Assembly (NCBI GenBank): GCA_016868315.1
Contig: VGHE01000002.1
Coordinates: forward strand, 1-64,000
DNA: 64,000 nucleotides
Reading direction: 5' to 3'
DNA from: Betaproteobacteria bacterium
Lineage (GTDB): Bacteria > Bdellovibrionota_B > Oligoflexia > Silvanigrellales > Silvanigrellaceae
The translations under genes and the position numbers were made by a program. The notes under the pieces are model-generated. The model worked only from the letters and a program-made list of their open reading frames with translations. It had not been told where the DNA came from and ran no database searches. Below, piece by piece: positions 5,914 through 16,550 of this stretch (position 1 is its first letter; the number at the start of each line of letters is the position of its first letter).

Positions 5914-6980
5914 CAGGGTTCTCCATAGATTTTAAGGCGTTCGTTGTAATCTTTCGATTCAACCTCGAGCTGCTCTTTAAGCTGCTTCATGCGTGCCATA
6001 CTGAGGTCTGCACCCGGGCAAAACTCTGGTGGAAGATAATCTTCGGAGCGTGCAGTAATCTCGTTAAAGATACCCGAGAAACCGCTCAGACCTCCAAGAA
6101 TAGATTTTGCGAGTCCATCAGAGAGTAGCTTGGCTCCCAGGTCGATCCCAACTCCAATGATCTTGCCCAGTGCCTCGCGCCTGTAGCGAGATGCCTTGGT
6201 TGCACCGCGCTGCTTTTCGCAATCTGAAATCTGCCCGTCTGTGAGCTTCGCAAGGTAAACAAACTCGCGCCCCATGGCGTCGACCTTATCCCGCTGTGCG
6301 CGCATTTTTTCCTTGGCTTCGAAAGCGAGATTTTTCTCTACGTTTGTATGTCCTCTGAGCTCAGTGGTCTTGCCGACCTGGCGTGTACAGCCATTCGAGA
6401 GGAACTCGGGATCACTTGAAGAGAGGCGACTCTTTTCAACACAGGCGCGCGCTACATAAACGTAATCACCAGTGTTGGCGTAGAAGTCGATCACTTTGTC
6501 ATTCGAAGTACCTGTGGTGATGTAAGCACAAAAGGGGTTGCTGGCTATTTTCTGCCAAAAGTCTTTGCTTTGGTATATGGCGTCTGCCTGCTTTGTGTTG
6601 GAGGCTCCAATTTCGATGTTGCCTAATTCACCGAGGTCTGCGTTTGAGCGGCAACGCAACACCTGAATGTAGTCGGCCTGAGGTGGGAAAGAAAAGCTTA
6701 CGATTGGGAAGCGATTGCGACCGTAATTGAAGAATGCCGCACCAAGCATGTTGAGCCGCATGCCTGCACCATCAAGCGCTTCCAGTGATATAGAACTCTT
6801 TACACTTCCAACGCTTGCGTCAGCTGCATTGGCAGCAGTTGGTTCGGAAGCACCCTTCTTTGCAGACGTCTGCGGCCTTGAAGCAGGTTGGGAGCATCCG
6901 GTAATCCCTGTAGACAAGGCTGCAGCACTGACGAGCGCAAAACAACTGATGCGCATCGGAGTGGAGAGTCTCTTACTCAT
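5913..6980 (-). CDS. Tandem-paralogue lipoprotein, second copy (unknown function)
   Basis: 355 residues with a lipoprotein signal ending STGITGC. It shares with its neighbours an ADYIQVLRC block, a DYVYVARAC block, a Cys 17 residues before a Gly/Leu-rich hydrophobic stretch (about 271-308), an FCPGAD motif and a helical C-terminal tail. The pattern of paired cysteines suggests disulfides and therefore a periplasmic or surface location. It overlaps the gene before it by 4 bases (ATGA) and the gene after it by one base. GGGAG lies 7 bases before the ATG. No known family is recognised; the similarity to its neighbours is by motif order rather than by close identity. Confidence 0.75.
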   Translation of the reverse strand: MSKRLSTPMRISCFALVSAAALSTGITGCSQPASRPQTSAKKGASEPTAANAADASVGSVKSSISLEALDGAGMRLNMLGAAFFNYGRNRFPIVSFSFPPQADYIQVLRCRSNADLGELGNIEIGASNTKQADAIYQSKDFWQKIASNPFCAYITTGTSNDKVIDFYANTGDYVYVARACVEKSRLSSSDPEFLSNGCTRQVGKTTELRGHTNVEKNLAFEAKEKMRAQRDKVDAMGREFVYLAKLTDGQISDCEKQRGATKASRYRREALGKIIGVGIDLGAKLLSDGLAKSILGGLSGFSGIFNEITARSEDYLPPEFCPGADLSMARMKQLKEQLEVESKDYNERLKIYGEP

Positions 6981-8392
6981 GGCTTGTCTCCCAGTTTGGC
7001 ACGCACGCTTTGAGCTCTCGCTTGAAGCTGGATAATGGCGCGTGATGTTTCCTCTTCAGCCAACTTGATAGTTTCCTCGAGTTTGGCTCCCAGTCCTTCA
7101 ACGCAAATACCCTCAAGTGCAACGCGGCGGTCAGCACTAGTGAGGTCGAAGATCGCATCGGCCAGCGAAGGCAGCGCATCTGTAATTGTGTCCCAGGGGA
7201 TTGGGTTTCCTGAAGCACCAGATTGAGAGAGCTTTTGAACTGCTTTGTCGGCGGCACCGCCTGGTTTGGAGGTGTCGGCTTTAGGATCTTTGGATGCCGG
7301 ACCCACCGGCGCTGTGACACCCTCGGTGACCGGTTCGCCGGCGTAGGACGTCAGTTTGAGATTCTTTTCACGCGAGATCATCCTAAGTGCCTCGGCCTTT
7401 TTCTTAAGGGCTTCACGCATCACACTGAGGACTTTGGGAATGTGTTTGGCATCTTGTGCCACAATTATTCTGCGGTCAGCGCTGCTGCCCGAGAATGCAA
7501 GTTCCTGGCTGGAAGAAAGCGCATAGATCGGAGGCTCCAGTGCTCCTCCACTTCCCGAACCGCCGCTCGATCCGCCGCTCGAACCGCCGCTCGAACCGCC
7601 GCTCGATCCACCGCTCGATCCACCGCTCGATCCACCGCTCGAACCGCCGCTCGAGTCCGACGCTTTCGCCGGTGGCTTCTCGGTGAGTTTTTTGCCAATT
7701 GCACCGACGATTCCCCCACCCAAGCGGGAAATAGAACCCACCAATGCGCGTTCAGCTTCGAGCAGGTTCTTGGCGCCTTCAGTTGCCGGTTTGCATTTTT
7801 CAGCGCGCTCCTCGCGCAGCTTCAAGACTTGCTTAAGCCTTTTGTCGAGCTCCTTCACGTCGCGTTCAATCGCCTCAAACTCTTCTTGAAGAAGAGTTTT
7901 GTCTTTGTTGGCAGAGGCCCACTGTGTGTATTCCTGGCTGTACCATGAACCACAGTTGCTTGAACCTTTGGAGCGCGTCGGATTCACGCATGCACGCAGC
8001 TGCACCACAACGCGCGAGCCATCGGGCGCGTTGGCCAGAGTCCCTTTGCTTTCGAAGATGTTCTTACTCTCGGTGCACGCGCCCGTTGCTTCCACGCAAG
8101 TCTTTGCCTCGATGTAATCCGTAGAACCGGAATAGCGGAAATCGAGAACGGGTTGAAGTGTTCCTCCCGTGCGTGGATCGGCATACTGGCCAACGACAAT
8201 ATCGGAAATGCGCAGCTGTGCCGCGTCAACCGATGGGAGCGCTGGGACTGTATCCAGGTTGAGCGCTGCGCTCGAAGTTGGACGACTTGGTGCGGCAGGA
8301 TTGCTGAAGCAGCCCTGCAGTCCAGGTGTCATGAGCACGACCGTTAGAAGGGTGCCTGGAAAATGTAGTCTTGAAAAATTTCTCAGTTTCAT
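6977..8392 (-). CDS. Tandem-paralogue lipoprotein with Ser-Gly repeat tract (first copy)
   Basis: 471 residues, lipoprotein signal ending GLQGC. The N-terminal part has the same blocks as the two following genes (TDYIEAKTC, SRVVVQLRAC), then an acidic/basic helical stretch (about 160-210) and a Cys 17 residues before a hydrophobic Gly-rich segment (GGGIVGAIG). Here the segment is followed by eight SSGG repeats (bases 7559-7654) acting as a flexible linker, then a second half of about 170 residues with a helical C-terminus. The start overlaps the vWA lipoprotein stop by 4 bases. The repeat tract is prone to length change by slippage. No known family is recognised. Confidence 0.75.
   Translation of the reverse strand: MKLRNFSRLHFPGTLLTVVLMTPGLQGCFSNPAAPSRPTSSAALNLDTVPALPSVDAAQLRISDIVVGQYADPRTGGTLQPVLDFRYSGSTDYIEAKTCVEATGACTESKNIFESKGTLANAPDGSRVVVQLRACVNPTRSKGSSNCGSWYSQEYTQWASANKDKTLLQEEFEAIERDVKELDKRLKQVLKLREERAEKCKPATEGAKNLLEAERALVGSISRLGGGIVGAIGKKLTEKPPAKASDSSGGSSGGSSGGSSGGSSGGSSGGSSGGSSGGSGSGGALEPPIYALSSSQELAFSGSSADRRIIVAQDAKHIPKVLSVMREALKKKAEALRMISREKNLKLTSYAGEPVTEGVTAPVGPASKDPKADTSKPGGAADKAVQKLSQSGASGNPIPWDTITDALPSLADAIFDLTSADRRVALEGICVEGLGAKLEETIKLAEEETSRAIIQLQARAQSVRAKLGDKP
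7559..7654 (-). repeat. 12-bp tandem repeat, eight units, encoding SSGG
   Basis: Eight near-identical 12-base units (plus strand WCCRCCGCTCGA) run without interruption from 7559 to 7654 and encode (SSGG)8 on the minus strand. Units differ only at the first and fourth bases (A/T and G/A), all silent for Ser or Gly. The unit length is a multiple of three, so gain or loss of units keeps the frame and changes only the linker length. Confidence 0.95.
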
Positions 8393-11287: not shown

Positions 11288-11317
11288 TTGACTTTTTTAA
11301 AACGAAGACTCTAGCTT
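11288..11317 (+). promoter_or_regulatory. Candidate sigma70-like promoter of carA
   Basis: TTGACT at 11288-11293, an 18-base spacer and TAGCTT at 11312-11317, about 35 bases before the carA start. The right arm of a CTCAAA/TTTGAG inverted repeat abuts the -35, which could let a repressor bind there. The -10 is poor, so this is tentative. Confidence 0.35.
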
Positions 11318-11351
11318 CATGCAATTTAACTTCAGCATGAGGTAATCGGCC

Positions 11352-12491
11352 GTGCGTGCAAGCTTTCTAATGGACGATGGTACGTTTGTGGTTGGAAACG
11401 CACTGGGTGCTGCATGTGAAACTGTGGCAGAGGTTGTTTTCAACACGGCCATGAGTGGCTACGAGGAAGTTCTCACCGACCCCTCATATGCAGGGCAATT
11501 TGTTCTTTTTACCACCAGCCACATTGGCAACACTGGAATCACGGGGTTCGATGCTGAGTCTCGTACACTCTGCGCTGAAGGATTTTTGTGTCGTGATTTT
11601 TCACTGGCGCGCGACAACTGGCGTGCACGGGCTACCCTTGAGGAGTTTCTGAAAGAGAAGGGGAAGTGCGCTCTCACGGATATTGATACCCGCTTTCTCG
11701 CGCAGCGTTTGCGCCAGCGAGGATCGATGCGGGCCATTCTGTCGACCTCCGATTTCGACCGCGTTTCACTTCAGCAGAAACTTGGGCGAAGCATCGATAT
11801 TTCCCTGAGAGACCTCGTTTCACAAACGAGGTCTTTTTCTTGGGCACAGAGCCGGAATGAGAATTTGTCTCGATCAGGTGAAAAAGAATTTCGTATTGTT
11901 GCTGTGGACTGCGGAATGAAACGAGGAATATTCGACGACCTTGAGGCCTTGGGTCTGGATATCCACGTTGTGGGTCCAGACGCCCGTGTTGCTGATATTC
12001 AGGCCATCCGTCCGGATGGCCTTTTTTTTGGGAATGGTCCTGGCTGCCCGAGGCAACTTGCGCAGCACTCAGGTGTACTTGAGCTTATTCGCTTCTTCGC
12101 CCCCCAGTTGCCGACGTTCGGAATTTGCTTGGGGCACCAACTGATTGCGCTCGCATTTGGCGGTGAGACGGCCAAGCTCGAGTTTGGTCACCATGCCGTC
12201 AACCATCCCGTTCTCAGTCTGGTGGAGTTGGCTGGTTTGCCCGCAGGTACGGTGATGATCACCTCTCAAAATCATAATTATCATGTTCTTGAATCATCTA
12301 TCGCAAGTGAGTTTGTGGTGACTCATAAACACATGAACGATTCAACGGTGGCTGGGATGCGACATCGCAGACACCCGATTTTCTCGGTTCAGTTTCACCC
12401 GGAATGTAATCCAGGTCCAGAAGATGCAAAGCCTCTTTTCCAAGTCTTTCTGCACATGCTGAAGGAGCATCGCCATGCCCGCGCGCACTGA
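11352..12491 (+). CDS. carA: Carbamoyl-phosphate synthase small (glutaminase) subunit
   Basis: 379 residues; hydrolyses glutamine and channels ammonia to CarB. The N-terminal CPSase_sm domain (to about 130) begins ASFLMDDGTF and includes NTAMSGYEEVLTDPSY. The class I glutamine amidotransferase domain follows from about 180, with nucleophile Cys259 in FGICLGHQ and His349/Glu351 in FHPECNPG. The usual NGPGDP loop reads NGPGCP, an unusual Asp-to-Cys change. The GTG start at 11352 has GAGGT 8 bases upstream; ATG 11370 would cut the first strand. The gene overlaps carB by 17 bases. Two terminator-like hairpins lie inside the coding region (11810-11841 and 12001-12029). Confidence 0.95.
   Translation: MRASFLMDDGTFVVGNALGAACETVAEVVFNTAMSGYEEVLTDPSYAGQFVLFTTSHIGNTGITGFDAESRTLCAEGFLCRDFSLARDNWRARATLEEFLKEKGKCALTDIDTRFLAQRLRQRGSMRAILSTSDFDRVSLQQKLGRSIDISLRDLVSQTRSFSWAQSRNENLSRSGEKEFRIVAVDCGMKRGIFDDLEALGLDIHVVGPDARVADIQAIRPDGLFFGNGPGCPRQLAQHSGVLELIRFFAPQLPTFGICLGHQLIALAFGGETAKLEFGHHAVNHPVLSLVELAGLPAGTVMITSQNHNYHVLESSIASEFVVTHKHMNDSTVAGMRHRRHPIFSVQFHPECNPGPEDAKPLFQVFLHMLKEHRHARAH
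11810..11841 (+). terminator. Terminator-like hairpin inside carA (first)
   Basis: A perfect 11-bp stem (AGACCTCGTTT, loop CAC, AAACGAGGTCT) runs directly into TTTTTCTT on the sense strand. It has the form of a Rho-independent terminator but lies in frame within the linker between the two CarA domains. Confidence 0.55.
12001..12029 (+). terminator. Terminator-like hairpin inside carA (second)
   Basis: AGGCCATCCG, TC, CGGATGGCCT form a 10-bp inverted repeat (about 8 bp once a loop is allowed), followed by eight T on the sense strand. It lies in the glutaminase domain at the codons for RPDGLFFGN, about 190 bases after the first hairpin. Confidence 0.55.
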
Positions 12492-15400
12492 CGTCAAAAA
12501 GATTCTCGTTCTCGGTTCAGGCCCAATTCAAATCGGCCAGGGGTGTGAGTTCGACTATTCTGGAACTCAAGCTTGCATTGCTCTGCGCGAGCTTGGCTAC
12601 AGCGTGGTTCTTGTAAATTCTAATCCGGCAACCATCATGACCGATGCATCGACCGCCGATCGCGTTTATATCGAGCCGCTCAGCGTCGAAAGTGTGCTCT
12701 CGATTTTGGAAATTGAGAAGCCAGATGCTCTCTTGCCCACGGTGGGAGGCCAAGTGGCTCTGAACCTTTTCCTCGAACTCAATAGGCTGGGGCATCTCAG
12801 CCGCTTGGGAATAAAAGCACTGGGTGTGAGCGCCGAGACGGTTATTCTCACTGAAGATCGGCGTGCCTTTCGAAATATGCTTGTTGAATTGGGTTACGCG
12901 GTCATCCGCGGCGATGTTGCTTCAAGTGCTGCACGGGCGCTTGCAATTGCGGCTGAGCTCTCATTTCCGCTGGTTGTGCGCTCTTCCTTTACTCTGGGTG
13001 GTGCCGGTGGTGGGGTTGTGCATTCTTCCGAGGAATTCAATGCGCTCTTAGAGCGTGTTTTTCTGCCGAATGTGAGCGCCGAGGTTGTGATTGAGGAATC
13101 GATCGTCGGTTGGAAAGAATACGAGCTTGAGGTCATGCGCGATGCTGCTGGTACCTTTGTGGTCGTGTGCGGTGTGGAGAACATCAATCCAATGGGCGTG
13201 CATACCGGCGACAGCATCACCTGTGCGCCCTGCATGACCCTCACCGACCGGGAATATCAACAGCTCAGGAACCAGGCTAAAAATATCTTCGAGCGAGTTG
13301 GTATGGAAACAGGTGGTGCGAATATCCAGTTCGCCATTCATCCAACCACAGGGAAAATTGTTGTCATAGAAATGAACCCGCGAGTGTCGCGCAGCTCTGC
13401 TTTGGTCTCCAAGGCAACGGGTTATCCCATTGCACGTCTCGCTGCAAAACTGGCTGTGGGAATGGTGCTCGCCGACCTCAAAAATGAAATCACAGGGCAG
13501 ACTACGGCAGCCTTTGAGCCTGCAATTGACTACGTCGTGGTTAAAATACCACGCTGGGATTTTGCCAAGTATCGGGGAGCCTCGCAGACCTTAGGCGTAC
13601 AGATGAAATCTGTAGGAGAGGTTCTTGCCTTCGGACGAACCTTCCGTGATGCATTTCAGAAAGCCTGGCGTTCGCTCGAGTTGGGTTACGACGGTTGGCC
13701 CGATGCACCCGAGGGAGTGGATTGCCGCGCGCAGTTCTCGGCACCCACACCACTCCTTTTTCCCGCCATCAAGTCAGCACTCCGTGCCGGGAGTTCGGTT
13801 GAAACGCTCCACATCCAAACGGGAATTTCAAAATGGTTTCTGTTTCAAATGCGTGAGCTTTTTGAGCTTGAAGAGCGACTCAAGCATGAACCTCTGTCTC
13901 TGAAACTTGTTCACAAGGCTAAGCAAGATGGCTTTACCAATGCAGCCATTGCCCGCTTCTCCGGAGTGAAAGAATCCGAGGTCGAGGCTCTTCTGAGTGA
14001 AAATGGCTTGAAGCCAACCTTCAAAATGGTTGACTCTTGCGCTGCCGAGTTTGAGGCAGTCACTCCTTATTTTTACAAGACCTGGGATCAACACAACGAC
14101 AACATTCCCTCCGCCAAGAAAAAAATAGTCATTCTTGGTAGCGGACCTAATCGTATCGGGCAGGGGGTTGAGTTTGATTATTCCTGCGTGCACGCCGTTC
14201 GTGCAGCGCAGTCGCTGGGCTATGAGGTCATTCTCATCAACTGTAATCCAGAAACGGTGAGCACAGACAACCTCGTGAGCGATAAACTCTTTGTTGAGCC
14301 ATTGCACGAAGAGGACGTCCTCGACATTCTACGTGCAGAGTGGCCTGAAGGTGTGTTTGTGCAATTTGGAGGACAAAGCCCTTTGAAGCTTGCGCCTGCA
14401 ATTCTCAAGGCGGGCTTTCGGATTCTCGGAACACCGCAAGAGGTCATTGAGCTCGCCGAGAACAGGATGGCTTTTGGAGAGTTTGTGTCGCGTGCGGGGG
14501 TTGATGTGCCTGCCTGGGCAACCGGCACCGAGCACAACGACTGTCTTGCGAAAGCGCAGAAGCTGGGCTTCCCGCTGCTTGTGCGCCCGTCATATGTCTT
14601 GGGCGGGCAAGCTATGCGTGTTGTTTGGAACGAGCAGGAACTGCAGGAATCCCTGAGTGCCGCACTCGACGTTTCGCAAGGCAAACCGGTCTTACTTGAT
14701 CGCTATCTTGCTGGAGCAATCGAGTATGATATTGATTTGGTTTGCGATGGGCAGGATGTTTTTATTCCCGCCATCATGGAGCATGTCGAGGAGGCTGGCA
14801 TTCACTCCGGTGACTCTGTTAGCATCATTCCTTGTTTGCGCACGGATGCACAAACCCAAGCCGAGATTCGGCGTGTGTGCACAAATATGGCTCTGCAGCT
14901 CGGTGTGTGCGGGTTGCTGAACGTGCAATTGGCACGGCATGCCGAGAAACTCTTTGTTATTGAGGTAAACCCGCGCAGTTCGCGCAGTGTACCATTCGTA
15001 TCCAAGGCCACGGGCATTCCTCTGGCAGAGTGGGGAACGCTTGTCGCACTGGGAGTTCCATTGGCCTCGCTGACTGCTGAGAAACGACCGCCGGCAAACC
15101 CGTGCTATGCGGTAAAGGCGCCGGTGTTTCCGTTTCATAAGTTTCCCGGTGTGAGTCCTCGACTGGGGCCTGAGATGCGCTCCATTGGGGAGGTCATGGG
15201 GCGAGCTTCGAGCCCTGGACTCGCGTTGGCTCGGGCATACCAAGCTGCAGGATGGCAACTCAAATGCCGGGGGCAGGTTTTCATTCTGTGCGAGCCACAG
15301 CAGCTGCACAAGTTGGATGCTCCCTTGAATGTTCTTGTTCGTGAAATTGGCTTGAAGTTGTCTTTGGGTGGCGATGAGGAATCTGCATCCCAGGCACTGA

Positions 15401-15603
15401 TGCAGGGAGAACTCGCGCTGGTTTTCTTCTGTACTGAAAATGCAAGTGATCACCTCAGAATGTGTGCTGAGCGAATTGGAGCATTGGCCATCCAGCACGG
15501 TATTCCATTTCTGGATTCGCCTTTTGCACTCGATTCTTGGGTTATGGCTTTGTCGGCAAAAGACAAAATTGAATCTCCTTTTCCACTTCTTCAGGAGCAT
15601 TGA
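12475..15603 (+). CDS. carB: Carbamoyl-phosphate synthase large subunit with reduced allosteric domain
   Basis: 1042 residues; makes carbamoyl phosphate from bicarbonate, ATP and ammonia. Two homologous halves are clear: GSGPIQIGQGCEFDYSG near residue 12 and GSGPNRIGQGVEFDYS near 555, each followed by an ATP-grasp domain (ENINPMGVHTGDS and HVEEAGIHSGDSVS). The last 120 residues should be the MGS-like allosteric domain, but the ATxGTA block and the following VNK...EGRP segment that binds UMP or IMP in the E. coli enzyme are missing, and the protein is about 30 residues shorter. The ATG at 12475 has GGAG 8 bases upstream and overlaps carA by 17 bases. Catalysis should be intact; regulation is probably altered. 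Confidence 0.95.
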   Translation: MPARTDVKKILVLGSGPIQIGQGCEFDYSGTQACIALRELGYSVVLVNSNPATIMTDASTADRVYIEPLSVESVLSILEIEKPDALLPTVGGQVALNLFLELNRLGHLSRLGIKALGVSAETVILTEDRRAFRNMLVELGYAVIRGDVASSAARALAIAAELSFPLVVRSSFTLGGAGGGVVHSSEEFNALLERVFLPNVSAEVVIEESIVGWKEYELEVMRDAAGTFVVVCGVENINPMGVHTGDSITCAPCMTLTDREYQQLRNQAKNIFERVGMETGGANIQFAIHPTTGKIVVIEMNPRVSRSSALVSKATGYPIARLAAKLAVGMVLADLKNEITGQTTAAFEPAIDYVVVKIPRWDFAKYRGASQTLGVQMKSVGEVLAFGRTFRDAFQKAWRSLELGYDGWPDAPEGVDCRAQFSAPTPLLFPAIKSALRAGSSVETLHIQTGISKWFLFQMRELFELEERLKHEPLSLKLVHKAKQDGFTNAAIARFSGVKESEVEALLSENGLKPTFKMVDSCAAEFEAVTPYFYKTWDQHNDNIPSAKKKIVILGSGPNRIGQGVEFDYSCVHAVRAAQSLGYEVILINCNPETVSTDNLVSDKLFVEPLHEEDVLDILRAEWPEGVFVQFGGQSPLKLAPAILKAGFRILGTPQEVIELAENRMAFGEFVSRAGVDVPAWATGTEHNDCLAKAQKLGFPLLVRPSYVLGGQAMRVVWNEQELQESLSAALDVSQGKPVLLDRYLAGAIEYDIDLVCDGQDVFIPAIMEHVEEAGIHSGDSVSIIPCLRTDAQTQAEIRRVCTNMALQLGVCGLLNVQLARHAEKLFVIEVNPRSSRSVPFVSKATGIPLAEWGTLVALGVPLASLTAEKRPPANPCYAVKAPVFPFHKFPGVSPRLGPEMRSIGEVMGRASSPGLALARAYQAAGWQLKCRGQVFILCEPQQLHKLDAPLNVLVREIGLKLSLGGDEESASQALMQGELALVFFCTENASDHLRMCAERIGALAIQHGIPFLDSPFALDSWVMALSAKDKIESPFPLLQEH

Positions 15604-15605
15604 AC

Positions 15606-16550
15606 GTGAGCTTATTTCCGCACAAATCTTTTTTGAGCTTAAACGATGTGAGCACTCCAGAACTGCGCGAGCTGTTACAAATGGCGCGTGAATTGAAGCA
15701 AGAGAAACGTGCAGGCGTCTTTCCGCAGCGTCTCAAACACAAAAATATCGCGCTTTTGTTCGAAAAACTCAGCACACGCACGCGCTGTTCATTTGCTGTT
15801 GCCTGCAAAGATGAAGGCGCACAGGTTGAATTTCTAGGGAAAGATGACATTCATTTTGGCAAGAAGGAATCGCTTGAAGATACCGCTCGCGTGTTGGGGC
15901 GTTTCTTTGATGGTTTGGTCTACCGTGGCTATGCTCAAAAAACAGCAGAGACTCTCGCTCAACTTTCTGGTGTTCCCGTGTGGAATGCTCTGACCGATGA
16001 AGAGCATCCAACTCAAGCTGTAGCTGATCTCATGACCCTCGAGGAGCACTTTTCACACCTTGCTGGTCTGCGAGTCGTTTATTTAGGCGATGCTGCAAAC
16101 AATGTTGCGAACTCGCTGATGGTGGCCTGTGCAATGGTTGGTGCACACTTTGTGGTTGCGGCACCTGAAAAGTACTGGCCTGCCAAAGAATATGTCGCAC
16201 AGGCAATGCTGCACTGTGAGAAGACCGGATCAACTTTAACCTTCGAAAACAATCCAACAGCAGCTGTACGGCACGCAGACGTTTTGTATACCGATGTCTG
16301 GATTTCAATGGGATTTGAAAATCAGCCGGGAGCGGGCGATCGCATAACTGAATTGCGACCTTACCAAGTCAATGCAGAACTCATGAAGGCTACGGGCAAG
16401 GCTGAAACAGTTTTCTTGCACTGCTTGCCAGCAAACAAGGGATTTGAGGTGAGCCATGAGGTGTTCGAAGGTGAACGAAGCCTAGTGTTTGAACAGGCTG
16501 AAAACCGCCTCCACACCATCAAAGCGCTGCTCTTACGTGGTTTGGTTTGA
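15606..16550 (+). CDS. argF: Ornithine carbamoyltransferase
   Basis: 314 residues; transfers the carbamoyl group to ornithine to give citrulline. Carbamoyl-phosphate binding STRTR starts at Ser56, then HPTQ in EEHPTQAVADL, the ornithine-side WISMG loop and FLHCLP with Cys273. The GTG at 15606 is chosen because GGAG lies 8 bases upstream; a TTG at 15600, which overlaps the carB stop, would leave only 2 bases. Being directly behind carB, the enzyme gets its substrate from the same operon, which ties carbamoyl phosphate synthesis to arginine formation here. It ends 15 bases before a convergent gene, and no strong terminator is seen in the gap. Confidence 0.95.
   Translation: MSLFPHKSFLSLNDVSTPELRELLQMARELKQEKRAGVFPQRLKHKNIALLFEKLSTRTRCSFAVACKDEGAQVEFLGKDDIHFGKKESLEDTARVLGRFFDGLVYRGYAQKTAETLAQLSGVPVWNALTDEEHPTQAVADLMTLEEHFSHLAGLRVVYLGDAANNVANSLMVACAMVGAHFVVAAPEKYWPAKEYVAQAMLHCEKTGSTLTFENNPTAAVRHADVLYTDVWISMGFENQPGAGDRITELRPYQVNAELMKATGKAETVFLHCLPANKGFEVSHEVFEGERSLVFEQAENRLHTIKALLLRGLV

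Follow-up and report, generated by a model that had tools for sequence, protein, structure and literature searches.

The carA operon and its two hairpins

The window, by which we mean the whole stretch of 64,000 nucleotides that was analysed, carries an operon with the gene order carA-carB-argF, in which carA comes first and the gene ends overlap (Table 1). CarA is composed of a CPSase_sm_chain domain (residues 6-130) and a GATase domain (residues 184-368) according to Pfam, and carB lies immediately 3' of carA in every relative examined. The match of CarB to its family model ends at residue 963 of 1042, and the MGS domain undetected in it is one that binds UMP or ornithine. In several other families of the phylum a divergent ORF of ~393-404 aa adjoins carA on its upstream side, for example at L227 in G016 (~1.2 kb, opposite strand). 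The window also contains, at 6977-8392 on the minus strand, a 471-aa ORF that starts like a lipoprotein and includes a long SSGG repeat.

Table 1. Genes and sequence features at the carA locus, with positions in the window.
Feature	Positions	Strand	Description and basis
Putative promoter and start	11288..11328	+	TTGACT - 18 - TAGCTT, then CAATTTA; from its sequence, and conserved in congeners and g2
carA, carbamoyl-phosphate synthase small subunit	11352..12491	+	GTG start, 379 aa; ORF and Pfam CPSase_sm_chain and GATase
HP1	11810..11834	+	11-bp perfect stem, CAC loop; linker between N-terminal and glutaminase domains
HP1 U-tract TTTTTCTT	11834..11841	+	First T paired in stem; codons TCT TTT TCT same in three congeners
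HP2	12001..12022	+	9-bp stem, GTCC loop; codes AIRPDGL directly before NGPG motif
HP2 U-tract	12022..12029	+	Eight T including one in stem; five or more T in a row past the stem in each of the nine species
carB, large subunit	12475..15603	+	ORF; without MGS domain at C-terminus
argF, ornithine carbamoyltransferase	15600..16550	+	TIGR00658, 401.5 bits against a cut-off of 280.85

Transcription presumably starts at the A at 11323, which gives a leader of ~29 nt. The start motif CAATTTA is kept in g1 and g2 and reads GATTTA in G001. By a strict pattern, TTGAC...AATTT was found in six of ten family genomes, and the remaining g5 genomes have a related start (CCAATTTTTGG / CCAATTTTTGGCT) by sequence comparison, all at predicted start sites. 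The phylum-level search, which covered the same genomes as the class, found 44 carA genes, all of which were scanned; a leader terminator was absent in 43 of them. Considering the short presumed leader and the absence of a terminator in it, we consider that a classical attenuator is absent here.

Inside carA, the first-pass annotation had described two sense-strand stem-loops followed by T-runs, and both are indeed present at 11810-12029. The first, HP1 (AGACCTCGTTT-CAC-AAACGAGGTCT, then TTTTTCTT), has the perfect 11-bp stem that had been claimed. For the second, HP2 (AGGCCATCC-GTCC-GGATGGCCT), the eight T stood, and the supposed 10-bp repeat is best drawn as nine pairs with a 4-nt loop, as ten pairs would need a loop of 2 nt. 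The predicted folding energies are -18.2 kcal/mol for HP1 and -17.0 kcal/mol for HP2 (z -4.3 and -3.3 against dinucleotide shuffles). A GC-rich stem that runs directly into a U-tract, as in intrinsic terminators, was found in nine species for HP2 and in three for HP1. A generic terminator scan ranked HP2 first of 28 and missed HP1, probably because the stem of HP1 can be extended via G-U and A-U pairs into the T-tract. The two hairpins lie ~490 and ~680 nt into the presumed transcript, and Rfam and tRNA/tmRNA scans of the 64-kb window gave no matches.

Such a pair is rare by chance. When the synonymous codons of this carA were resampled, a pair of such hairpins appeared in 0.75% of trials and a hairpin as strong as HP2 in 0.25%. 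At the level of the single sites, HP1 would arise in 0.9% of synonymous encodings, and the HP2 peptide QAIRPDGLFF is prone to hairpins, with 5% of its encodings passing the filter. As a genome background we used 704 kb (~670 kb coding), which is 22% of the genome. Under the strict filter only six sense in-gene matches were found there. Among perfect hairpins followed by a T-tract on the sense strand of genes (~0.67 Mb coding), HP1 and HP2 rank as the strongest; the next perfect one belongs to rpsA, and the remaining matches are weaker. No such hairpin was found in argG of the same genome. A perfect 9-bp hairpin with T7 at G000:C2:261662-261690 (minus strand) was rejected as a third comparable in-gene match, as it lies shortly before the true start of rpsA and appeared in-gene through an over-long ORF call.

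Conservation of the hairpins in the genus and family

The comparison covered the three members of the genus, in which the congener CarA proteins are 73% and 67% identical to that of the window, and the 14 genomes of the family. The stem-forming synonymous sites keep their pairing in close relatives, together with the T-tracts and amid changed surroundings, and the loss of pairing that the first-pass annotation had named as speaking against its proposal was not seen. All three congeners retain HP1 (codons GAC CTC GTT TCN CAA AYG AGG TCT TTT TCT), with changes in G001 and G002 confined to the loop and one G-U pair, within a linker whose remaining part is unrecognisable in the codon alignment. 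HP2 (codons GCC ATC NNN CCG GAT GGC (C/A)TT TTT) is shared by the three congeners and, at ~46-51% protein identity, by five species from a second genus, and it is kept in nine of nine family members with the same CarA type, down to ~46%. Its core, GCCATCC-NNCC-GGATGGC, occurs as a single copy, in carA only, in eight of the 14 family genomes, and G003 has a G-U variant. The five family genomes without HP2 have either no recognisable carA (G004, G009, G010, G013) or a divergent one (G005).

In the three congeners, synonymous codons are identical at 8/9 testable sites of HP1 and 8/8 of HP2 as against 42/205 (20.5%) in the rest of carA, and in eight family species at 6/6 sites of HP2 against a background of 7/123 (5.7%); these figures are effect sizes and not exact probabilities, as the species share ancestry. 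Identical runs of at least 11 bases in carA of the three congeners are solely the hairpin arms and U-tracts; in their carB genes no identical run of at least 12 was found, and a search of carB and argF for conserved partner blocks found none. The tolerated changes are those in loops, sense-strand G-U pairs (HP1 in G002, HP2 in G003) and a G-C to U-A exchange at the outer HP2 pair. The hairpin core is nearly constant, which leaves little room for covariation. In some relatives HP2 is weak: its stem is down to 7 bp in G006 and in G012, and the outer pair is unpaired in three of eight distinct sequences. Judged by codon comparison, these patterns show selection at the RNA level on HP1 and HP2, and a cis-acting function of the sense-strand RNA in the control of carB and argF is well supported by them.

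The same patterns bear on what the hairpins may be. Both are near-perfect inverted repeats within a biosynthetic gene, and they could act at the DNA level, as operators at which elongating RNA polymerase is blocked, in the manner of PurR inside purB, an in-gene roadblock cited in PMC6245113. We consider this very unlikely, as the changes in loops and stems preserve RNA pairing through G-U and break DNA symmetry, HP1 and HP2 have no common sequence, and each is a single copy, which leaves no regulon. A repeated palindromic element of the REP or RPE type was rejected on the count of one copy per genome. It is also quite unlikely that a small regulatory RNA made from within carA has its 3' end at HP2 or HP1: such ORF-internal RNAs exist in E. 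coli, for example FtsO in ftsI (PMC7815308), but for either hairpin the upstream bases, in which a pairing region would be expected, lack conservation among the congeners.

The U-tract codons of HP1 are kept within a fast-changing linker in the three congeners. A stem-loop with a T-run can promote transcriptional slippage, and the T8 after HP2, found in several species, could on this ground be a programmed slippage site for a second CarA product. This idea is largely refuted and extremely improbable: neither a long homopolymer nor an alternative frame is conserved, as G002 and G003 have only T5, the out-of-frame extensions are short and of unequal length, and HP1 lacks a long T-run. Alternatively, the hairpins could slow ribosomes at domain boundaries for the folding of CarA or its assembly with CarB, with the T-tracts as incidental coding. 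The positions would suit this, as HP1 is within the inter-domain linker and HP2 lies, by its coordinates, where the N-terminal domain would have just exited the tunnel; however, conservation of a U-tract right after the stem is left unexplained, as is the sufficiency of single hairpins in g5 and g2, and we rate this reading as improbable.

Finally, HP1 and HP2 could serve in mRNA processing or stability, for example as RNase III sites or by protecting a 3' end so that a stable 5' fragment remains, with no termination. With 7 to 11 bp the stems are short as RNase III substrates, and the conservation of the U-tract along with the hairpin, including TCT TTT TCT in the variable linker, also argues against it. 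On the other hand, a conserved sense-strand RNA structure holds whatever its function, and the in-gene stem-loop of E. coli arfA both terminates transcription and is an RNase III cleavage site (PMC3989581). We regard processing as unlikely.

Hairpins in carA of other families and phyla

Resampling was extended to the other carA genes, with a null that used each gene's own codons and is conservative for this reason. In the family, 13 hairpins were observed against 1.29 expected, and in the other families of the phylum 7 against 1.70. The inter-domain linker of these other families accounted for 6 observed hairpins against 0.54 expected, ~210-227 nt before the NGPG codons. Most carA genes in these families are without such a hairpin, and those found in the linker are of unrelated sequences and match HP1 by position only. 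The conserved pair G016/G052 keeps the hairpin codons CCG TCG .. TCT CCG GCG GTT TTT TTT unchanged between diverged flanks (89% protein identity; 146/321 synonymous codons identical). At this position G048, which belongs to their genus, forms its hairpin from a different stem. In a fold test of the 36 nt before the FFDP codons, 7 of 27 genes reached P <=0.05. Among 80 control carA genes from other phyla there was no clear excess (5 against 2.80 expected; linker 1 against 0.28).

Recurrence at the same place with different sequences is the expectation under selection for structure; the linker is also tolerant of protein change and is for that reason an easy site for building a hairpin. Chance together with protein and codon constraint could draw on the hairpin-prone HP2 peptide and on FF codons, which yield T-runs. 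Against this stand the hairpin synonymous identity, far above that of the rest of carA, and the excess over resampling inside and outside the family, and we hold chance to be a very improbable explanation. Kept nearly unchanged in relatives amid diverged neighbouring sequence, HP1 and HP2 are very probably real control elements of the whole operon.

Probable ribosome gating, its possible signal and known systems

Textbook attenuators sit in leaders, and strong intrinsic terminators located in genes are generally seen as accidents or as something that genes avoid. Our favoured reading, which is the simplest one and which we consider probable, is that HP1 and HP2 are intrinsic terminators within the first structural gene, gated by the ribosome that translates carA, in a pyrBI-like attenuation that would sit within the gene and not in a leader. 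When the leading ribosome is close behind RNA polymerase, it would cover the 5' arms and block the hairpins, and transcription would read through to carB and argF. When the polymerase is ahead, because it transcribes fast or because translation of carA is slow or fails, HP1 would form, followed by HP2; the polymerase would halt at the U-tracts, and carB and argF would not be made. In such a system, carA itself would be the counterpart of the pyrBI leader peptide. Published measurements show that a ribosome close behind the polymerase silences terminators in coding regions, which become active once coupling is lost (PMC4824070; PMC5021804). This published silencing, together with the conserved pairing and U-tract and the absence of a leader terminator, leads to the ribosome-gated reading; we infer termination at HP1 and HP2 with the lag of the ribosome as the switch. 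The translation-coupled control through terminators proposed in the first-pass annotation is in this way partly supported by the comparison. At ~490-680 nt into the transcript ribosomes are normally close to the polymerase, and termination might therefore be rare. Compensation for a missing Rho was rejected, as rho is over the cut-off in 14 of 14 family genomes.

As to the signal, our guess is nucleotide (UTP) supply, and hence pyrimidine. Plentiful UTP would let the polymerase outrun the ribosome, as in the logic of pyrBI. Arginine starvation is a less sensible trigger, because stalled ribosomes would shut off genes that are needed. The pyrBI transcription start has AATTT. The carA start possibly resembles those of UTP-sensitive reiterative transcription, judging by its letters, and E. 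coli carAB has UTP-sensitive reiterative initiation (PMC6245113).

No gene for aspartate carbamoyltransferase (pyrB) was found over the cut-off in the family, and no argH over the cut-off in the genus of the window. From these two absences, the citrulline of the operon seems not to be routed to arginine in the usual way. An argG-MGS fusion (MGS = PF02142, 57 bits) lies outside the window at G000:C2:228561-234059 (L139:4561-10059), and downstream of it are genes for an amidohydrolase (PRK06886) and for dihydroorotate-dehydrogenase-like and orotate-phosphoribosyltransferase-like proteins. In G009, G010, G013 and G004, which have no CarA match of this kind, argG is kept, near a pyrE-like gene in the first three; the argG cluster is accordingly independent of the carAB-argF operon. 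The enzyme set suggests that the operon feeds pyrimidine, and not only arginine, synthesis. A possible, perhaps undescribed, route would lead from citrulline and aspartate through argininosuccinate to dihydroorotate, with the amidohydrolase releasing ornithine. If this route is real, carA-carB-argF feeds pyrimidines, and the AATTT-like start would fit UTP control. As a tentative and rather doubtful extension, the phylum may repeatedly build attenuators inside carA, from unrelated sequences in the same linker, with carA as a leader that senses nucleotide supply by a race between ribosome and polymerase; in the family of the window, it would control pyrimidine supply via citrulline and the ArgG-MGS fusion, and not via aspartate carbamoyltransferase.

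Two terminator-like hairpins have been retained in a structural gene, one of them across divergence of about half of the protein. They offer a natural system for asking whether transcription-translation coupling serves as a regulatory signal within genes, and synonymous conservation of a hairpin and T-tract is a simple signature for finding further cases. If the hairpins are ribosome-gated, carB and argF would be switched off on the same transcript whenever coupling in carA is lost.

Among known systems, pyrBI of E. coli is similar in that an intrinsic terminator is overlapped by a translated frame before carbamoyl-phosphate/pyrimidine genes, as both hairpins here are within carA codons, and in its AATTT start. 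It differs in that its frame is a short leader peptide, whereas here it is carA itself, ~490-680 nt in and with two terminators; this operon, with its presumed ~29-nt leader, showed no leader peptide ahead of carA. The carAB operon of E. coli, controlled by ArgR, PurR, PepA and UTP-sensitive reiterative initiation, is the same operon and shares possibly a UTP-sensitive start. However, the portion of PMC6245113 cited here describes no in-gene terminator, and states that attenuation is unused in E. coli at the arginine-controlled carAB promoter P2 and at other arginine genes.

The Polynucleobacter carA motif, a candidate riboswitch, is likewise a cis RNA element tied to carA, but it is upstream of the gene and forms a long imperfect hairpin (PMC8632094), and the window had no Rfam match. 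The arfA stem-loop resembles HP1 and HP2 as an in-ORF structure that truncates mRNA, giving non-stop messages; it differs in lying near the 3' end, in being mostly cut by RNase III and in regulating a single gene through trans-translation (PMC3989581). Latent intragenic terminators, which are revealed by uncoupling through EF-P or antibiotics, are also silent under a close ribosome. Those terminators are incidental, whereas HP1 and HP2 are maintained by selection and, as far as sampled, are confined to carA.
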